A stretch of DNA of 37,591 nt from a virus. Shown in pieces: positions 16,381 through 23,278 of this stretch (positions within the stretch are counted from its first letter, which is position 1; the number at the start of each line of letters is the position of its first letter). The translations under genes and the position numbers were made by a program. Under the pieces are notes generated by a model. The model worked only from the letters and a program-made list of their open reading frames with translations, was not told the origin of the DNA and did no database searches. Location: positions 1-37,591 of the IMG/VR virus record IMGVR_UViG_3300010401_000059. One strand, given 5' to 3'.

Positions 16381-16983
16381 TTAGCATCTATTAAACCGAG
16401 ATTCGACGTCCTCGATCTTCTCAAAACATTGCGCCAACAATAAACAATCTGTGAGGGCTCTATGAGGATTATCATAGGCAACCTTCATGGCATTACAAAT
16501 ATCCTCTAATCGAAAACGATTGAGGGGAACAGGCCAGGTGAAATGTGCTTTTGTGCAAATCCACCGCTTATTGAGAAAAGCGTTTCCATAGGCTAATGTT
16601 TTGATGAATTTCTTATCAAATTCTGCATTGTGTGCGACACATACATCGGCTGAATTTAACATTTCGATCATAATAGTATCAACTAAAACCACTTCTTGAT
16701 AAATAAGGCTTGAGGATTCCTGCGGATTCCTCCATACGTCTTCAAGTAACTCTTCTTTATAAGGGTTTCGCACAAAGGGGTATTTGCATTGCGTCGCTTC
16801 AGCTTTGATATGGTTGATTCGCTCAACGGGATTATTATCACATGGGTAAAGGGTAGCAAATGATTGTAAGACTGTTCGATGCTTTAAATTGAATAAGACA
16901 GCGGCTATTTCGATAACTTTATCGCCCTTGTCAGGCATTAAACCAGTTGTTTCAGTGTCCACTATTAAAATATTTTCAATCAT
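16381..16983 (-). CDS. DEDDh 3'-5' exonuclease (DnaQ/RNase T family, 200 aa)
   Basis: All DEDDh motifs are visible: ExoI D-x-E at residues 9-11 (VDTETTG), ExoII with Asp near 125 (AHNAEFDKKF), and ExoIII His/Asp near 174-179 (PHRALTDCLLLAQ). The length fits a stand-alone nuclease domain. No polymerase gene is present, so it is not a proofreading partner of a phage polymerase. It could trim DNA or RNA, degrade host nucleic acid, or interfere with host repair. It is the last gene of the accessory cassette, followed by a 173-base gap before the coat gene. Confidence 0.88.
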   Translation of the reverse strand: MIENILIVDTETTGLMPDKGDKVIEIAAVLFNLKHRTVLQSFATLYPCDNNPVERINHIKAEATQCKYPFVRNPYKEELLEDVWRNPQESSSLIYQEVVLVDTIMIEMLNSADVCVAHNAEFDKKFIKTLAYGNAFLNKRWICTKAHFTWPVPLNRFRLEDICNAMKVAYDNPHRALTDCLLLAQCFEKIEDVESRFNRC

Positions 16984-17047
16984 AAAACTTCCTTATCTTA
17001 GTTTATATAGACATCATGTCCGAATTGATTCCATTGGGAATCAACTA

Positions 17048-17221
17048 TTACAATGGCTCACCTAAAAATCCAATCTCACGTTTAATTAATTCGTCGCCAA
17101 CAATTTCATAAAGTAAAATATCTATACCAGAACATCCGGCAATATATTTACCATTATTTAAAAATTGCCATTCATAACCGTCTGGCAATTGCATAATAAA
17201 TTTGGCTTCTCGTTTATTCAT
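17048..17221 (-). CDS. Small hypothetical protein (57 aa)
   Basis: This short ORF reads MNKREAKFIMQLPDGYEW, FLNNGKYIAGCSGIDI and ends GFLGEPL. Its ATG overlaps the stop of the upstream 154-aa gene (ATGA), supporting coupled translation. Mixed alpha/beta composition, one Cys, no membrane segment. No family recognised. Confidence 0.6.
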   Translation of the reverse strand: MNKREAKFIMQLPDGYEWQFLNNGKYIAGCSGIDILLYEIVGDELIKREIGFLGEPL

Positions 17222-17682
17222 TTCATTAATCCATTTTCTAAAAGATAGATTAACATTTTAGCCATTGCATCTGCCAAATTCGGATCAAAAATATTTTTAG
17301 TTAATTTTTTACACATCCAGGCATCTATACCTATAGCTGCCGTACTATCACAGGAATAATTTAAAATATAATTATTAGTTAAACTTCTATCTTCATTAAC
17401 ATTATAAAATTTATTAATCGTTATTACAAAATTGTCAAATGGCTCAGCATCAGGAACGGTGACACGATTAGGAAGCAGCTCACCAAGCTCAGCAATAGAA
17501 AAAGCACTTGCCAATCGTTGAACTGATAGATAATGATCTAAATCAAATGATGTATTTGATTCCTCTATTGTTAACCCATATCTTTCAGTATCAAACCAAG
17601 AAAATAAACTCTCTTGTATTACTCCAAGCTCCTTTAGCCGTTTTGCATGTTCAGGGGAGCAGACTTGTTTTATTATTTCCAT
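17218..17682 (-). CDS. Conserved phage hypothetical protein (154 aa)
   Basis: Starts MEIIKQVCSPEHAKRLKELG, then SLFSWF, SIAELGELLP and ends NLADAMAKMLIYLLENGLM. The pattern CSPEhAKrLKELGV...ESLFxW...ELGELLP...A.AKMLIYLLENG is common in phage and prophage hypothetical proteins. It starts at 17682, just after the DUF3310 gene stop (TGATAATG), rather than ten codons earlier inside that gene. Central acidic region. Function unknown. Confidence 0.7.
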   Translation of the reverse strand: MEIIKQVCSPEHAKRLKELGVIQESLFSWFDTERYGLTIEESNTSFDLDHYLSVQRLASAFSIAELGELLPNRVTVPDAEPFDNFVITINKFYNVNEDRSLTNNYILNYSCDSTAAIGIDAWMCKKLTKNIFDPNLADAMAKMLIYLLENGLMK

Positions 17683-17684
17683 TA

Positions 17685-17963
17685 TCAGCCCTCTATATCT
17701 TTTCTTAAACAAATATTACCCGAAACGCTTGGCGTTTTTTCTTCTATTTTTTCTACTAACTTAACAGCGTCATTAAGATACCATTGTGCTTTCTTTAAAT
17801 CTTCTAAACCATTTTTCATTGAAGCTCGCCATAGATATTTGACGACATTGCCAATATTAAAATTCATGTGACGCGTGATATCAATGCACTCGATACGTTT
17901 CCCGCATTCACAGTGCGCTGGCGAGTTGTTATAATGCTTTGGATGATTAATATTATCTGTCAT
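17685..17963 (-). CDS. DUF3310 protein (T7 gp1.7-related type, 92 aa)
   Basis: Carries the diagnostic DUF3310 pattern: NHPKHY near the start, GKRIECIDITRHMNFNIGN, VVKYLWRASMKN and LEDLKKAQWYL. Family members are common in phages; some link to nucleotide metabolism (T7 gp1.7 is a nucleotide kinase), but most are untested. The C-terminus (TPSVSGNICLRKDIEG) is not typical. It overlaps the upstream CxxC gene by 11 bases. Confidence 0.85.
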   Translation of the reverse strand: MTDNINHPKHYNNSPAHCECGKRIECIDITRHMNFNIGNVVKYLWRASMKNGLEDLKKAQWYLNDAVKLVEKIEEKTPSVSGNICLRKDIEG

Positions 17964-18180
17964 ATTTGAAAAACTCCTTCCTTGATGCTTTTAAGTAACA
18001 AATCAAATTATCGTAACAATAGTTAAAATTATGATAGCCATAAATTATAGTAGAGTTTTTCTCTACAAGTGGATGCTTAAATGTATTGATCTCAGTCCAT
18101 AGCCTTTTTTCACCACAGGATTTACATTTAAAATATTTTAATGATTCGGGTAAAGTATCAATATTTTGGCCATGGGGCAT
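17953..18180 (-). CDS. Small CxxC protein, possible zinc ribbon half (75 aa)
   Basis: 75 residues with FKCKSCGEKRLW (CxxC) in the first third and further Cys residues in YNYCYDNLICY-type sequence. One CxxC plus the later Cys could bind a metal, but a classic second CxxC is missing. The ATG is inside the preceding membrane gene (23-base overlap), and its stop overlaps DUF3310. Family not recognised. Confidence 0.6.
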   Translation of the reverse strand: MPHGQNIDTLPESLKYFKCKSCGEKRLWTEINTFKHPLVEKNSTIIYGYHNFNYCYDNLICYLKASRKEFFKYDR

Positions 18181-18514
18181 TTTTCATGTCCTTATCGTAT
18201 ATTCTAAGTCTTAAAAGATTATTTAAACTATCTATCTCATCTTCATCTTTCATTAAAATTCTATGCAACATTTCTGTGTAAAATTTTAAATCAGCATATT
18301 CTAACCGCATATTCACCCATATATAACAAAACGATATAAGCAATCCGCCAACAGCCATATTATTGAACCATGCAGAATGATCTTGTATAACCATAACTAT
18401 ATTTATAAACAAAACGATAAGAGTTACCATTAACTGATTAAAATAACTATTATAAGCTCGTTTATAAATTATAATTTTCAACTTTATTCTTTCTATTTCT
18501 TCTTTATTATACAT
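18158..18514 (-). CDS. Two-TM membrane protein (118 aa)
   Basis: N-terminal charged helix (MYNKEEIERIKLKIIIYKRA), two hydrophobic segments (about residues 28-45 and 53-70), then a cytoplasmic helical tail with acidic residues (MKDEDEIDSLNNLL). Both ends are predicted in the cytoplasm. First of three adjacent membrane genes, each separated by a base or a few bases. Holin-like or superinfection-exclusion roles are possible, but another gene fits holin much better. Confidence 0.6.
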   Translation of the reverse strand: MYNKEEIERIKLKIIIYKRAYNSYFNQLMVTLIVLFINIVMVIQDHSAWFNNMAVGGLLISFCYIWVNMRLEYADLKFYTEMLHRILMKDEDEIDSLNNLLRLRIYDKDMKNAPWPKY

Positions 18515-18515
18515 A

Positions 18516-18662
18516 TTATAGTTTCTCTCTAATTTCTAAATATATTGCATAGACAAACGCAGTAATTACATATTCAAATTCAGTAAACCAATGACCCTGT
18601 GTATATCTACCAATAATACTCATGACAGCCGCAATAATAAAAGCTAGAATTAAATTTATCAC
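18516..18662 (-). CDS. Tiny membrane protein (48 aa)
   Basis: GTG start with AAAGG seven bases upstream. A hydrophobic helix covers residues 2-18 (LILAFIIAAVMSIIG), with a second weakly hydrophobic segment (EYVITAFVYAIYLEI). The stop lies one base before the ATG of the next gene. Operon position supports it; function unknown. Confidence 0.5.
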   Translation of the reverse strand: MINLILAFIIAAVMSIIGRYTQGHWFTEFEYVITAFVYAIYLEIREKL

Positions 18663-18676
18663 TTTATTTCCTTTTA

Positions 18677-18775
18677 TTAAGGTGCAGGATTAATAAATGC
18701 TAAGCAAAGAAAAAATCCTATAACAAAACTGAATAAAATTAATTTATACAGTTTATCCTTAATTCTTTTATTCAT
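18677..18775 (-). CDS. Tiny single-pass membrane protein (32 aa)
   Basis: Basic start (MNKRIKDKLYK), then one hydrophobic helix (LILFSFVIGFFLCLAFI) and NPAP end. AAGGAAA lies upstream at a usable distance. Spacing fits the operon. It could be a small membrane toxin-like or regulatory peptide; no evidence decides. Confidence 0.45.
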   Translation of the reverse strand: MNKRIKDKLYKLILFSFVIGFFLCLAFINPAP

Positions 18776-18790
18776 TGTTAATTTCCTTAT

Positions 18791-19168
18791 TTACCTATTT
18801 CTTAATGATAAATTAATCTTACTAAGAGCTTGCTTTATATCTTCTATACTTTTTCTTCCAAGATTAGGTATTTTCAATAAATCTCGCTCAGAGTGAGTGA
18901 TAAGTTGCCCTACTGTTTCAATACTTTCAGCACGTAAACAATTAACCGCTCGAGCAGGATAATTTAAATCTAATTCTTCTACTGGAAGAAAATCCACACT
19001 ATCTTCCTCTTCAGTATTCCATAAATGCGCGGGGTCAGAAATAAAAACCATAGATTCCACAGTATAATGTGAATTACAATCATCCGTATCTTTTGATCGT
19101 AAAACCCAACCACCTATAACCCTTGCTCTTTTCGTTGTATCATCCAATGTTTCCCATTCAAATTTCAT
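18791..19168 (-). CDS. RNA polymerase alpha-CTD mimic fused to a small N-terminal domain (125 aa)
   Basis: Residues 60-121 are a close match to the C-terminal domain of bacterial RNA polymerase alpha (RpoA), which binds UP elements, activators and sigma. Aligned to E. coli alpha from memory, the DNA-contact residues are kept: R73 (R265), N76 (N268), C77 (C269), N102 (N294), G104 (G296), K106 (K298), S107 (S299). The acidic sigma-contact patch survives as E64, E65, D67. Two residues are added before R73, and the usual tail after helix 4 is gone. Residues 1-50 (RARVIGGWVLRS, SMVFISDPAHLW) look like a small beta domain seen in phage hypotheticals. There is no alpha N-terminal domain. Start 19168 has GGAG upstream and overlaps a DUF551 stop. 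A transcription decoy or adaptor is inferred. Confidence 0.85.
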   Translation of the reverse strand: MKFEWETLDDTTKRARVIGGWVLRSKDTDDCNSHYTVESMVFISDPAHLWNTEEEDSVDFLPVEELDLNYPARAVNCLRAESIETVGQLITHSERDLLKIPNLGRKSIEDIKQALSKINLSLRNR

Positions 19169-19347
19169 TTTGGTAGCTCCGGCAATGACATCCAGTGTGT
19201 AATCCATCCTAAATCCTGATGCGATTTCCAATGTGTATATCTATTATTTATTTCACGATAACCAAATCCAATTTTTCGCCCGTCAGTAAGCAAAACATTT
19301 ATATGACATTCAGGGTATTCAATTCCTACATTTATCCATTCACTCAT
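19165..19347 (-). CDS. DUF551 protein, copy 1 (60 aa)
   Basis: Typical DUF551 plan: MSEWINVGIEYPE at the start, NVLLTDGR, and the ending ITHWMSLPELPK (consensus W-I-v...P......V...DG...THWMPLPEPP). Unknown function; common in phage accessory regions. It overlaps both neighbours by ATGA. A second, diverged copy lies two genes upstream at 19556-19723. Confidence 0.8.
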   Translation of the reverse strand: MSEWINVGIEYPECHINVLLTDGRKIGFGYREINNRYTHWKSHQDLGWITHWMSLPELPK

Positions 19348-19559
19348 GTTTTATTCCAGACAAAATTATTATTAATCGTAAGCTCTGACACCCTTAAACA
19401 AATATTAACTTTTGTATGACCATGATATTCCAAAATTAAATCTTCAGGATTACAATCAAATTTATTAATTGCTTCTTTCATTGCATCTTCAATAATCTTT
19501 GCATGTTGCAATGCTAATTCTTTAGTTTTTTGATCAATCAATTTTTGTAATTCATTCAT
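19344..19559 (-). CDS. Hypothetical protein between two DUF551 genes (71 aa)
   Basis: The N-terminal half is a charged amphipathic helix (MNELQKLIDQKTKELALQHA), the C-terminal half beta-like (ILEYHGHTKVNICLRVSEL). Both ends overlap DUF551 genes by ATGA. Family not recognised. Confidence 0.6.
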   Translation of the reverse strand: MNELQKLIDQKTKELALQHAKIIEDAMKEAINKFDCNPEDLILEYHGHTKVNICLRVSELTINNNFVWNKT

Positions 19560-19723
19560 TTTGGCGGCTCCGGCAATGGCATCCAGTGAGAGACTTTACT
19601 GTCATCCCACTTACCTTTTCTTAAGGCGGATACACCAACCCATTTTGACCAATAATCTGTACATACTAAATAACGACCATCTTTTTCTGGTACTCGATTA
19701 TTAATACTAATCCATTCACTCAT
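19556..19723 (-). CDS. DUF551 protein, copy 2 (55 aa)
   Basis: This short ORF reads MSEWISINNRVPEKDGRYLV, then KWVGVSALRKG and SHWMPLPEPPK. It is a closer fit to the DUF551 consensus than copy 1. It overlaps the upstream stop by one base (TAATG) and the next start by ATGA. The 3' ends of both DUF551 genes share a CACTGGATG-x-CATTGCCGGAG block, suggesting duplication or recombination between copies. Confidence 0.8.
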   Translation of the reverse strand: MSEWISINNRVPEKDGRYLVCTDYWSKWVGVSALRKGKWDDSKVSHWMPLPEPPK

Positions 19724-19971
19724 TAGTCATGCTCTTTTAAAGCTAAACGGTGCGCATCATTTAGCATCTGTTCAACAAATTCTAAAATATCACCAGTTTT
19801 TTGATCATCCCATGCTTCTTTAGATATAAAGCCATAGCGATGACCATCAAATGAAATTTCATAATAGCCAATTCCTTCCTGTTTTTTACCATGATAAATG
19901 GATGACCATGGCAATTCTTTGTATGTTATTTCCCACTTTTTTTTACTCTCTACTGAATCATCACAATTCAT
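19723..19971 (-). CDS. Hypothetical protein (82 aa)
   Basis: 82 residues, aromatic and beta-like in the centre (WEITYKELPWSSIYHG, GYYEISFDGHRYGFI), helical acidic end. ATGA overlap with the gene above, TAATG with the DUF551 gene below. The GxxYYEISFDGHRYGF segment suggests a compact beta-hairpin domain. No family recognised. Confidence 0.6.
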   Translation of the reverse strand: MNCDDSVESKKKWEITYKELPWSSIYHGKKQEGIGYYEISFDGHRYGFISKEAWDDQKTGDILEFVEQMLNDAHRLALKEHD

Positions 19972-20381
19972 TGCTCATCCTCTTGTTCAAATTCAGCAGT
20001 TTCACTATATTTGGCTAACTCCTCTGCTAGTTCTTTTATTCCCTCTATAACTACACTATCACATGGCTTATCAACTTCACCTTTGATAAATTCAACATCA
20101 ATGACGTCATAATTATTAATTTCATCAAAATGCTTTTCAATGTATTCGTGCGCGATAGGGAAAGTTCGACCTGTGTTTTGCCAATCACCTGAGTAACGTG
20201 CTGAAAAATTAGGGGCTTGCATTGAAATTAATAAAATACATGGCTTGGCTTGGCTTCTATAGCCAATTTCTTTAAATAGAAACAACTCATGCTCTGTTTC
20301 GGGTCTCATGCGTATTGCAAAGGCAGCAATTAATGTGGCTCTATCTCGAATTTCAACGATTTTAATGTTTTCTGGCTTCAT
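19968..20381 (-). CDS. Conserved phage hypothetical protein (137 aa)
   Basis: Pattern KIVEIRDRATLIAAFAIRM, then FLFKEIGY, GRTFPIAHEYIEKHFDEI and DVIDVEFIKGEVDKPCDS. This arrangement (IRDR.T.I.AFAIRM ... GRT.PVAH.YI..H.DEI..GDVVDVE.ILGE..KP) recurs in many phage hypothetical proteins. Acidic C-terminal tail (EFEQEDEQ). Alpha/beta, no membrane segment. Function unknown. Confidence 0.75.
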   Translation of the reverse strand: MKPENIKIVEIRDRATLIAAFAIRMRPETEHELFLFKEIGYRSQAKPCILLISMQAPNFSARYSGDWQNTGRTFPIAHEYIEKHFDEINNYDVIDVEFIKGEVDKPCDSVVIEGIKELAEELAKYSETAEFEQEDEQ

Positions 20382-20391
20382 TTTCTTCTTC

Positions 20392-20649
20392 TTAATGTGA
20401 TGGTTTACGTTTTAGTTCTTTTTCATTGATAATATCAGTTAAAAAATCACGGATTGCAAAAATTTGTTCGTCAGTAAGCTCGCCACCGATGCCAAAATTC
20501 GGACGCTCTTTCTTTTCAAATAAAAATCCTAGCACTTCATGGCGATCACTTATGTTCAAACCATATTTATCAGTCTGCAAATCATGAAAAATACAAATAA
20601 ATACTTTATCTAGTCCTTTTTCAAGATCTTCCATTGTGTACGTAGTCAT
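20392..20649 (-). CDS. Hypothetical protein (85 aa)
   Basis: 85 residues: helical start (TMEDLEKGLDKVFICIFHDL), a central loop (GFLFEKKERPNFGIGG) and a helical end (LTDEQIFAIRDFLTDIINEK). Overlaps the upstream gene by ATGA. The DRHEVLGFL/ELTDEQIFAI layout may form a small helical bundle. Not recognised. Confidence 0.6.
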   Translation of the reverse strand: MTTYTMEDLEKGLDKVFICIFHDLQTDKYGLNISDRHEVLGFLFEKKERPNFGIGGELTDEQIFAIRDFLTDIINEKELKRKPSH

Positions 20650-20930
20650 ACCATGCTCCGTTTGATAGCATTATTTACTTCATCTTTAATTTGTCCGAAT
20701 AAATCTTTCATTAATTGTTTACGACTACTTTGTAAATTAAATGATTGAATCGAACCTATTAAAACTTCTCGGTTAAACATAATTAAAATTGAAAAAGTTA
20801 AATTGACCATAGATTGTGTATCAAATAATTTCCCGCTCTTAATTAAATTTGAAGAAAAACTTTCAAGCAATTCATTTATCATCTTTTGCTTAACTTCTTT
20901 TTGTTTTTCATTTATTGAATCTATCCCCAT
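20646..20930 (-). CDS. Hypothetical helical protein (94 aa)
   Basis: Mostly helical with a hydrophobic middle (NLTFSILIMFNREVLIGSI) flanked by charged helices. A single membrane-associated helix is possible but weak. Start supported by AAGGGG upstream, inside the 3' end of the zinc/coiled-coil gene (10-base overlap). No family recognised. Confidence 0.55.
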   Translation of the reverse strand: MGIDSINEKQKEVKQKMINELLESFSSNLIKSGKLFDTQSMVNLTFSILIMFNREVLIGSIQSFNLQSSRKQLMKDLFGQIKDEVNNAIKRSMV

Positions 20931-21871
20931 ACAATCCCCTTAGTTTCACAAGGCTTACAATCCTGTTCCCAATAACCACCAGCGGGTAACGTAAAATGAA
21001 TCTTGCCTTTACCTTCGCAAACAGGGCATCTATGCGGTTTTTTAGATGTAGCTTTATATTCGAGATGTGTTATCTCTTGATATCTTTCAATTTCTTTCAT
21101 GCGTTGGTTATCTTGAATGTTTTTTTCAATGGCTGCTTCTTTCCATAGTTCTAATTTTTCTATTCGCTCTTTTTGCTGACTTAAAGCTAAAATAACTTCT
21201 TTGGTTGATTCAAAATCAGATTGATACGCACCTTCTAATTTTTCTAAACGCTTAAGTATATTTTCTTGCCACATCTGTGCTTGCAAAGGTTTGTCGTATA
21301 TTTTTAATACTCTAAATTTATCTTCTAATTCTTCAATACGCTCACTTAATCGATTAAAACCTTTTTGAGTTTCAATGTTAAATCCTTTTAAAATATCTAA
21401 TTCTATATCAATAAAATCTTGAAGAGCTATCAAAGCATCATTTGCATCTTTATGTTCTTTCTCTATACGTTCAAAACATTTTTCGATACCTTCTTGTGTA
21501 TGCTCAACAGAAGACTCTAAACTTCCAACTTCACGTCTGTAATCATTTTGTATCTCATGCAACGCTTTATCAAGGTCTTGACGATTATCTTTATTGAAAC
21601 AAACATGATTTTCAAGGGTATCAATTCGTTTAATAGCTAAACTTAAATCTTGATCCAGCTCATTGCTAACTTTTCTAATCATATCCTCTGCGCCATGTTG
21701 ATGCGCATTAATAGTGTCAGCTAATAATTCAAGTTTATCGACACGTTTAAATAACATATCAGTGGGATGAGGGTAAGCCATATATTTATTTTTTTCTTTT
21801 ATTACCTCTTCGTGGAAACAGCATGCGCCACATAATGCAGCACCAAGTTTATGACAATTGCACTCACACAT
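20921..21871 (-). CDS. Zinc-binding coiled-coil protein with two terminal Cys motifs (316 aa)
   Basis: Three-part layout. The N-terminus has a dense Cys/His cluster (CECNCHKLGAALCGACCFH, residues 2-20). Residues 40-265 are long coiled coil. The C-terminus (about 280-314) has CPVCEGKGKI and CKPCETKGI, a DnaJ-type CxxCxGxG pair able to bind zinc. This central-region finger in DnaJ/Hsp40 binds unfolded protein, but no J domain is present. Several pairs of cysteines suggest two metal sites joined by a rod. It could be a scaffold or adaptor for a phage complex. Largest gene of the accessory cassette. Function unknown. Confidence 0.7.
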   Translation of the reverse strand: MCECNCHKLGAALCGACCFHEEVIKEKNKYMAYPHPTDMLFKRVDKLELLADTINAHQHGAEDMIRKVSNELDQDLSLAIKRIDTLENHVCFNKDNRQDLDKALHEIQNDYRREVGSLESSVEHTQEGIEKCFERIEKEHKDANDALIALQDFIDIELDILKGFNIETQKGFNRLSERIEELEDKFRVLKIYDKPLQAQMWQENILKRLEKLEGAYQSDFESTKEVILALSQQKERIEKLELWKEAAIEKNIQDNQRMKEIERYQEITHLEYKATSKKPHRCPVCEGKGKIHFTLPAGGYWEQDCKPCETKGIVWG

Positions 21872-21887
21872 TTTGTGTCCTTATTGT

Positions 21888-22058
21888 TTATCGATATTCC
21901 CAATAGCGTGGATCAGAGGCTATATAGTTCGGAGCATCACTAATTACGTTACTATGGCCTTTGATTGGAGAATCGGCAGTTACATCATCATAATTGGGTT
22001 CGCCACCTTGCGTTTGACCAGGATCAGACATTTCAGCTTGTGAAGGTGGCTTTTTCAT
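21888..22058 (-). CDS. Small Pro/Asp/Gly-rich protein (56 aa)
   Basis: This short ORF reads MKKPPSQAEMSDPGQTQGGE, NYDDVTADSPIKGH, and ends ASDPRYWEYR. Low-complexity and probably disordered. The stop of the preceding 61-aa gene lies 2 bases before its ATG. The aromatic end (RYWEYR) recalls short peptides that dock to other proteins. Not recognised. Confidence 0.55.
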   Translation of the reverse strand: MKKPPSQAEMSDPGQTQGGEPNYDDVTADSPIKGHSNVISDAPNYIASDPRYWEYR

Positions 22059-22060
22059 GA

Positions 22061-22246
22061 TTAACCTCGATGAAATCCCTTTAATGTCTCAGCAAGCCTT
22101 GCGCGTTGACCAAGTTTGCCTCCTGCTTTGGCAGCTTTTGCAAGCTTTTTAGCGGGGATTTTCTCACCCTTTGGCACGCCTAATTCTTTGTGTAAAGCAC
22201 CAGGGTGCTTGATTGCACCCTTAATCCACTGCTTTTTCTCAGCCAT
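22061..22246 (-). CDS. Small basic phage protein (61 aa)
   Basis: Reads MAEKKQWIKGAIKHPGALHK, GVPKGEKIPAKKLAKAAK, GQRARLAETLKGFHRG. The pattern W-I..AI..PGALH..LGVP.GEKIPA.KL..A...... is common in small basic phage proteins. ATG 22246 is chosen over an in-frame TTG because GAGG lies 8 bases from it. Strongly basic, likely helical; nucleic-acid binding is possible. Confidence 0.7.
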   Translation of the reverse strand: MAEKKQWIKGAIKHPGALHKELGVPKGEKIPAKKLAKAAKAGGKLGQRARLAETLKGFHRG

Positions 22247-22248
22247 AA

Positions 22249-22446
22249 TCAATACCTCGGGCGTTGCAACATATTATCTATGATGTCAATACAGCTAGGA
22301 TGTAATTCATCCAGTTTCCTTTTAAATTCATAAAGCGCATCGATCGCTGTCTTAAGATCATCTCTTTCATTGCGACTATATCGTGACTCATGGATTGATT
22401 TAGGCGCTTCGCATTGCATAGGGGTATTGCCAAATCGATTCAACAT
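22249..22446 (-). CDS. Small helical protein (65 aa)
   Basis: Reads MLNRFGNTPMQCEAPKSIHE, then YSRNERDDLKTAIDALYEFK and DELHPSCIDIIDNMLQRPRY. ATG 22446 follows GAAGGGGAAG and overlaps the upstream stop (TAATG). A longer open frame runs upstream to 22797, but its extra part lies over two other genes with better starts. Two conserved-looking Cys; possibly a helical hairpin. Not recognised. Confidence 0.65.
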   Translation of the reverse strand: MLNRFGNTPMQCEAPKSIHESRYSRNERDDLKTAIDALYEFKRKLDELHPSCIDIIDNMLQRPRY

Positions 22447-22559
22447 TACTTCTTCCCCTTCTTCATGTTTTTGTCCATCATTTTTTTGTCTGACTTCATA
22501 TCTTTTTTGGCATCCTTCTTCACTTCTTTTTTCACTTCTTTCTTCATTTCCTTTTTCAT
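22446..22559 (-). CDS. Lys/Met-rich peptide (37 aa)
   Basis: Built of repeated KKE/KKD/MKK units (MKKEMKKEVKKEVKKDAK, then DMKSDKKMMDKNMKKGKK), with more than 45% lysine. It has the strongest Shine-Dalgarno site of the cassette, AAGGAG, seven bases before ATG 22559, so it is probably made. Similar Lys/Met-rich small proteins are known in phage genomes but have no function. The DNA repeats may allow polymerase slippage and length change. Confidence 0.6.
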   Translation of the reverse strand: MKKEMKKEVKKEVKKDAKKDMKSDKKMMDKNMKKGKK

Positions 22560-22660
22560 TTCGATCTCCTTGGGTAGTAATGTTAAATTCCTTAAAACCT
22601 TTATTAACCCACATCGGGCTGCCTGAGTGCATGAACGCAATAAATGCTTTATCTTCTTCA

Positions 22661-22819
22661 TTAGCGATACTCGTTAAATCTTGGCTCAGGCTTTCGTGTC
22701 TCATAAGTTCTATCGCGCTCCTCAACAGTGGAATCATATTTTTCTTTCTTTGAAGGGCGTTCAAGGTTTTTAGCCTGAATATTAATAATCTGACCATTCG
22801 GAATGATTTTAGCTGCCAT
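22661..22819 (-). CDS. Small hypothetical protein (52 aa)
   Basis: This ORF in the third frame reads MAAKIIPNGQIINIQAKNLE, then RPSKKEKYDSTVEERDRTYE and ends PEPRFNEYR. ATG overlaps the previous stop (TAATG). Its end is TAATG too, opening a frame (22661 down to 22446) in line with the Lys-rich peptide. About 100 bases (22560-22660) between it and the Lys-rich start are open in two frames and remain unassigned. Confidence 0.6.
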   Translation of the reverse strand: MAAKIIPNGQIINIQAKNLERPSKKEKYDSTVEERDRTYETRKPEPRFNEYR

Positions 22820-23010
22820 TAGCGATACTCCCCATGACGGTGCTGTGAAACCATTTGAGGCTTGGTTGAAGATTGCATTGGGTTCTCGCGTGAAACATTT
22901 GGTTTAGATGTTCCACGAGGAGCTTGGCCTTTGGCTTTGCCCATCGTCTTTGCAGGCGATAAAGCTTTCGTCAACACATTGCCACTTTTCATTTCATTGA
23001 TGACTGTCAT
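22819..23010 (-). CDS. Small basic disordered protein (63 aa)
   Basis: Reads MTVINEMKSGNVLTKALSPA, then KGQAPRGTSKPNVSRENPMQ and QHRHGEYR. Low complexity, Ser/Pro/Lys/Gln rich, net positive. Coupled by ATGA to the gene above and TAATG to that below. The ending (HGEYR) resembles the RFNEYR ending of the next protein, which may reflect a common docking motif. Not recognised. Confidence 0.6.
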   Translation of the reverse strand: MTVINEMKSGNVLTKALSPAKTMGKAKGQAPRGTSKPNVSRENPMQSSTKPQMVSQHRHGEYR

Positions 23011-23162
23011 TTTTCAAACCCTGAGTGGTTTAAACCATTACTGCCTGGTCGACTTTTTTCAAAATCATTTTCCATAGGTGGATTGTCAAATGGCACTTCA
23101 GATTCTTCATAAACCTTAGAACCTTGCGACATTTCTTCATACGAGATATCTTTCTTTTCCAT
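23007..23162 (-). CDS. Small acidic protein (51 aa)
   Basis: Starts at 23162 (MEKKDISYEEMSQGSKVYEE) with GAGG upstream. A longer in-frame start is not used because it would cover the tiny membrane gene. Acidic first half, then Pro/Asn-rich (VPFDNPPMENDF) and a basic, Gly/Ser end (NGLNHSGFEK). Not recognised. Confidence 0.55.
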   Translation of the reverse strand: MEKKDISYEEMSQGSKVYEESEVPFDNPPMENDFEKSRPGSNGLNHSGFEK

Positions 23163-23173
23163 AAAATTATTCC

Positions 23174-23278
23174 TCACATTTTCATCGCTATATCTATCAT
23201 GCAAAGCGCAATAATTAGAAATGATACGGATATCATACCTAACGATGCACAAACTACGCATAGAAAGCTTTCACTCAT
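23174..23278 (-). CDS. Tiny membrane protein (34 aa)
   Basis: This short ORF reads MSESFLCVVCASLGMISVSF then LIIALCMIDIAMKM, nearly all hydrophobic, with three Cys. GGGGAAG precedes the ATG, which overlaps the previous stop (ATATGA). Single-pass membrane peptide; function unknown. Confidence 0.45.
   Translation of the reverse strand: MSESFLCVVCASLGMISVSFLIIALCMIDIAMKM

Follow-up and report, generated by a model that had tools for sequence, protein, structure and literature searches.

Phage relatives of the RNA polymerase alpha C-terminal domain

Phages are known to take over host RNA polymerase by means of anti-sigma factors, inhibitors, modifying enzymes and whole polymerases, and attack on the alpha subunit is one of the established strategies, as the Alt and ModA proteins of T4 modify host alpha. 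In phiKMV-like phages, Rac leads to cleavage of alpha (PMC7552054). With respect to phage proteins that themselves resemble the C-terminal domain of alpha (alpha-CTD), BFVD holds entries from uncultured Caudovirales, Rhodococcus phage Finch and Mycobacterium phage Mithril that bear the automatic name 'RNA polymerase, alpha subunit, C-terminal'. Like the protein described here they have an alpha-CTD-like fold, but most of them align to its model over about 60-80 columns only, i.e., over the alpha-CTD. Goe8, Mecenats66, Mazun and Ruegeria V16 are further phages encoding alpha-CTD proteins. Bacillus phage Goe8 QDP42789 and Morganella phage Mecenats66 ORF34 are small proteins with a C-terminal alpha-CTD, as in the present case, but their N-terminal domains are different ones, ORF34 consisting of NinX and a degenerate alpha-CTD that has lost most of the DNA-contact residues. 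No paper on the function of a phage alpha-CTD protein was found in the literature searched, which included few subscription journals or preprints. This kind of protein is thus already known in annotation, and its function, its breadth and the architecture with a beta domain appear to be undescribed in that literature.

A fusion gene between the head genes and its alpha-CTD

The window, i.e., the whole stretch of 37,591 nucleotides of viral DNA analysed here, was without a megablast match that would point to a host, and the portal and RecE relatives are distant. The features on which the following analysis is based are:

18791..19168, minus strand: gene for a 125-aa fusion protein (beta domain plus alpha-CTD); open reading frame whose homologues in two other viral contigs (L082 and L174) start at MKFEWE
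19013..19168, minus strand: N-terminal beta domain, aa 1-52, of the F-x-W-E ... RxxVxGGW ... MVFxxDPxHxW family; from the family alignment and AlphaFold2 strands
18821..19009, minus strand: RNA polymerase alpha C-terminal domain, aa 54-116 (Pfam stretch); PF03118 E = 6.3e-20, Foldseek to 1lb2_E
18956..18961, minus strand: two-residue insertion Y70-P71 before helix 1, compared with bacterial alpha-CTD; from the alignment
18950..18952, minus strand: R73, equivalent to E. coli alpha R265; from the alignment; all 69 phage alpha-CTD proteins scored among the matches listed have R here
19177..19180, minus strand: Shine-Dalgarno sequence GGAG, 8 nt upstream of the ATG; seen in the sequence itself
19165..19347, minus strand: upstream 60-aa open reading frame with a 4-nt overlap (ATGA) with the fusion gene; weak DUF551 match
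19556..19723, minus strand: DUF551 protein encoded in the same run of genes, farther upstream; PF04448 E = 9.9e-13

The reading frame proposed in the first-pass annotation was borne out, with an ATG start at 19168, 125 codons and a stop at 18791-18793; a longer version from a TTG at 19231 is not needed, as the homologues begin at MKFEWE. The overlapping 60-aa frame, whose match to PF04448 (DUF551; E = 9.5e-4) lies just under the cut-off, is probably co-translated with the fusion gene. Matches to PF04448 are confined to these neighbours, the fusion protein itself having none in Pfam. From 16381 to 23261 on the minus strand, the scaffold/portal genes and the gene for the major head protein are separated by a run of small genes, among which are two for proteins of DUF551 type, one with a short PHROG match of the nucleotide kinase family and an exonuclease-like gene. 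Lying among these small genes, with scaffold genes on one side and the capsid gene on the other, the fusion gene is not surrounded by any obvious regulatory block. As promoter-like sites in the AT-rich region of this gene block are no more frequent than in shuffled sequences, no target site can be named.

The C-terminal part of the protein had been taken for a nearly full alpha-CTD, and this assignment is confirmed by sequence as well as by structure comparisons. The score against PF03118 (RNA_pol_A_CTD) is 71.1 bits at a curated cut-off of 23.8, and all PDB sequence relatives with E < 0.05 are RpoA chains, the best being Francisella alpha1 (E = 4e-13). The AlphaFold2 model, computed from a 32-row alignment of the window protein and the proteins of the related loci, has a pLDDT of 89.8 and a pTM of 0.63, with helices at residues 71-80, 86-89, 94-98 and 105-117. 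In Foldseek comparisons against the PDB it matches the DNA- and CAP-bound E. coli alpha-CTD (1lb2_E) with a TMt of 0.91 and an rmsd of 1.3, and the alpha-CTD 8y5t with a TMt of 0.92 and an rmsd of 1.0.

A likeness due to chance, to a generic helix-hairpin-helix or to contamination by host DNA might still be considered, given that the HHH_5 model weakly matches the protein, too. However, this match (E = 7.5e-4; 20.4 bits, under the cut-off of 27) falls far behind the E = 6e-20 for RNA_pol_A_CTD, the modelled fold fits that of alpha-CTD, the gene lies in a phage genome with head genes on either side, and two further viral contigs carry the same fusion. Such a reading, whose probability we regard as negligible, is refuted by profile, fold and genome context, and the C-terminal part of the protein is a genuine RpoA-type alpha-CTD and a member of PF03118.

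In comparison with the alpha-CTD of RpoA (PF03118; E. coli residues 249-329, Francisella alpha1) the sequence identity is 44-52%, and the fold, the DNA-contact residues and the acidic patch contacting sigma are common to both. In line with the first-pass annotation, R73, N76, N102, G104, K106 and S107 align with R265, N268, N294, G296, K298 and S299 of E. coli, and E64/E65/D67 with D258/D259/E261 of the acidic patch. To these correspondences two features can be added that it had missed, namely the replacement of E. coli E302 by D110 and the Y70-P71 insertion. The latter follows the segment equivalent to 258-263, ahead of helix 1, and may alter how the acidic patch is placed with respect to the DNA-contact helix. 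In contrast to RpoA, the protein has a beta domain in place of the alpha N-terminal domain, lacks the C-terminal tail, and has a different surface around position 287, the equivalent residue being R. Nor is it a full alpha subunit, whose N-terminal domain serves dimerisation and RNA polymerase assembly, as the N-terminal 52 residues are unrelated to the alpha NTD and the NCBIfam rpoA models score far below their cut-offs.

The N-terminal beta domain and the recurrence of the fusion

In agreement with the proposed replacement of the alpha N-terminal domain by a beta domain, residues 1-52 show no match to the RpoA NTD and form four strands in the AlphaFold2 model (5-7, 12-17, 20-28 and 36-44); modelled alone, the domain reaches a pLDDT of 89.6. 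Its stretch of the window protein is not matched by Pfam, NCBIfam or PHROG, and it has no Pfam or NCBIfam name in any of the proteins tested, PHROG 14288 being a possible distant relative of some family members. Because a search of viral_contigs for close relatives of the full protein or of its N-terminal half was empty, motif patterns were used instead. With a DNA pattern for MVFxxDPxHxW, 33 viral contigs were obtained, all of which encode the same family, as opposed to only four matches among 257 Gb of genomes from bacteria and archaea; a second search with another alignment yielded 55 loci on contigs partly shared with these 33. The members are mostly stand-alone proteins of 50-80 aa, and G20, W21, F42, D45, H48 and W50 are invariant in the family alignment, which includes the window sequence. 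Going by these sequence comparisons, the beta domain is an unnamed phage-specific family. Tandem duplicates of it are found at L043:3127-3585 and L044:4862-5242, and in L012 and L037 it follows an apparent signal peptide.

A small, mobile and accessory domain occurring almost exclusively in phage contigs might be a sponge-type binding module, so that the fusion protein would act in anti-defence, its alpha-CTD copy being a decoy that titrates a host factor or enzyme targeting alpha. The top Foldseek matches of the beta domain, which are Lockin chains bound to 3'cADPR, would fit with this idea, but their E-value of 0.69 is at chance level and there is no significant match in the PDB. Since no significant structural or sequence link connects the beta domain to any defence or anti-defence family, we consider this explanation very unlikely.

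The same order of domains, a beta domain directly followed by an alpha-CTD, is encoded on two further viral contigs. The protein of L082 (35.6 kb) is 36% identical to the window protein in a full-length BLAST alignment (E = 2e-22), and that of L174 (16.6 kb) is 43% identical (E = 3e-29). L174 was found via its N-terminal domain and hence independently of the alpha-CTD pattern introduced below; its protein keeps R265, N294, G296, K298 and S299 and has Y at 268. The fusion is a real and recurrent architecture. In L174 the gene lies just before genes which we take, reading the sequence by eye, to be recE/recT-like, with DUF551-like neighbours as well, and its neighbour in L082 is, by the same reading, presumably a helicase-like gene. 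A further contig, L117, was considered as a carrier of DUF551 and rejected for want of Pfam support. With neighbours differing between the window, L082 and L174, the fusion gene behaves as a mobile accessory gene. Trees of the beta domain and of the alpha-CTD are compatible with a single origin as well as with separate origins of the fusions in the window and L082.

Alpha-CTD proteins across uncultured phages and their possible role

The distribution of alpha-CTDs in IMG/VR was assessed with a DNA pattern in which N268, C269, L270, N294, L295, G296, K298, S299 and E/D302 were fixed, with leeway for codon degeneracy, and from which R265 was left out. At least 120 matches were obtained; after removal of one unrelated family of large proteins, at least 107 alpha-CTD proteins, at least about 72 of them distinct, were counted in contigs whose viral status is IMG/VR's own classification. 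Many matches in INPHARED, being bacterial rpoA contamination, were left out of this count. The rarity of such proteins that the first-pass annotation had implied is therefore not supported: uncultured phages commonly encode alpha-CTD fusions, and the window protein exemplifies a module that recurs in phages. Among the matches listed, all 68 proteins scanned, the window protein included, have a PF03118 match, but only one of the 68 also matches the N-terminal RpoA domain (RNA_pol_L). The partner is sigma-70 region 4 (Sigma70_r4) in 17 of these 68, and various HTH domains and small phage domains are among the other partners.

Although not part of the pattern, R occupies position 265 in every one of the 69 proteins scored among the matches listed; in the same set R, E, S, A and N all occur at 287 and none has a majority, and about half to two thirds have acidic residues at 258/259/261. 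R265 is also kept in seven of eight proteins found by other routes (the window protein counted), the degenerate domain of Mecenats66 being the eighth. That 265 is always R while 287 varies freely argues that DNA minor-groove binding is the conserved property, and selection appears to keep DNA binding in phage alpha-CTDs. As R265 is near-invariant in bacterial RpoA, too, this conservation is to be read as retention and not as new selection. In addition, binding of UP elements is not universal, given the Y268 of L174 and the loss of some contact residues in Mecenats66 and Mazun.

Several phage alpha-CTD proteins are of a different build. In the viral contigs L085 (5427-6290), L131, L147, L150 and L164 an HTH, a sigma-70 region 4 and an alpha-CTD are found in one protein, and in L062 and L120 the same arrangement occurs with HTH_17. 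The domains of L085 and L062 were checked individually by Pfam and those of L131, L147, L150, L164 and L120 were read from the sequence. Such a chain combines a reader of the -35 element (sigma region 4) with a reader of UP elements (alpha-CTD), frequently behind an HTH at the N-terminus. As in the window protein R265 is kept, e.g., in L085 and L062, but the partner is a -35 reader and the N-terminus an HTH. No description of a joint promoter role of the two domains was found in the literature searched, and these proteins may be of greater interest than the window protein. At L049:8257-8715 the alpha-CTD is inserted inside a small phage protein, with PHROG 2201 before and PHROG 20565 after it, and L086:700-1503 encodes a tandem pair of alpha-CTD-like domains in one viral protein. 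In Ruegeria phage vB_RpoS-V16 (L167:1423-2289) the alpha-CTD is N-terminal, and the C-terminal part is MazG-like by eye; one record annotates the product as pyrophosphatase.

The best explanation, put forward with moderate confidence, is that the window encodes a two-module phage accessory protein which brings its beta domain to promoters via the alpha-CTD and tunes initiation. The alpha-CTD would have been derived from bacterial RpoA with its minor-groove DNA-binding face retained, would bind AT-rich, UP-element-like DNA beside the -35 region and might touch sigma region 4. The beta domain would thereby be brought to promoters that serve host RNA polymerase in the infected cell, and initiation there would be tuned in favour of the phage. 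As a lone alpha-CTD binds DNA weakly, the beta domain probably provides a second contact, by self-association or with RNA polymerase or a phage factor, its precise role being a guess in view of the Foldseek result. Of the roles that the first-pass annotation had considered, namely competition for UP elements, recruitment of activators and carriage of the N-terminal domain to promoters, the last is favoured, because the partner domains are many and unrelated, and a function at promoters because they are rich in promoter readers among the matches listed (sigma-70 region 4 and several HTH families).

If, instead, activator surfaces and UP elements were taken up by free alpha-CTD copies, transcription of host rRNA and of genes dependent on activators would be lowered and the beta domain would merely stabilise or dimerise the protein. 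The full set of DNA contacts and the acidic sigma patch of the window protein fit with such competition, as do the attacks on alpha by T4 and phiKMV-like phages. However, a competitor needs no partner domain, and nearly all phage alpha-CTDs among the matches listed have one, of many unrelated kinds; moreover, the window protein has not retained the 287 surface that class I activators use, and this position varies among these matches, so that competition is rather unlikely.

Alternatively, the alpha-CTD might serve as a generic tether, used for its affinity to the AT-rich minor groove of phage or host DNA alone and without a role at RNA polymerase or promoters. Partners unrelated to transcription do exist, such as that in Ruegeria phage V16, the acidic patch is incomplete in a sizeable share of the matches listed, and the homologues in L082 and L174 adjoin helicase or recombination genes. 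Yet the frequent sigma region 4 and HTH partners among the matches listed point to promoters, and the acidic patch is kept in the window protein, which makes a mere tether unlikely.

Returning to delivery to promoters, a wider version of it, which we put forward tentatively as a possibility, is that the alpha-CTD is a general-purpose targeting tag of phages, which would have been fused repeatedly to enzymes, small accessory domains, HTH domains and sigma region 4 so as to anchor these at the promoter complexes of host RNA polymerase, the beta domain being one such cargo. If true, there would be a large class of phage proteins that reuse the DNA-gripping tail of the polymerase itself, with its key arginine kept throughout, and this would represent a different route of take-over.
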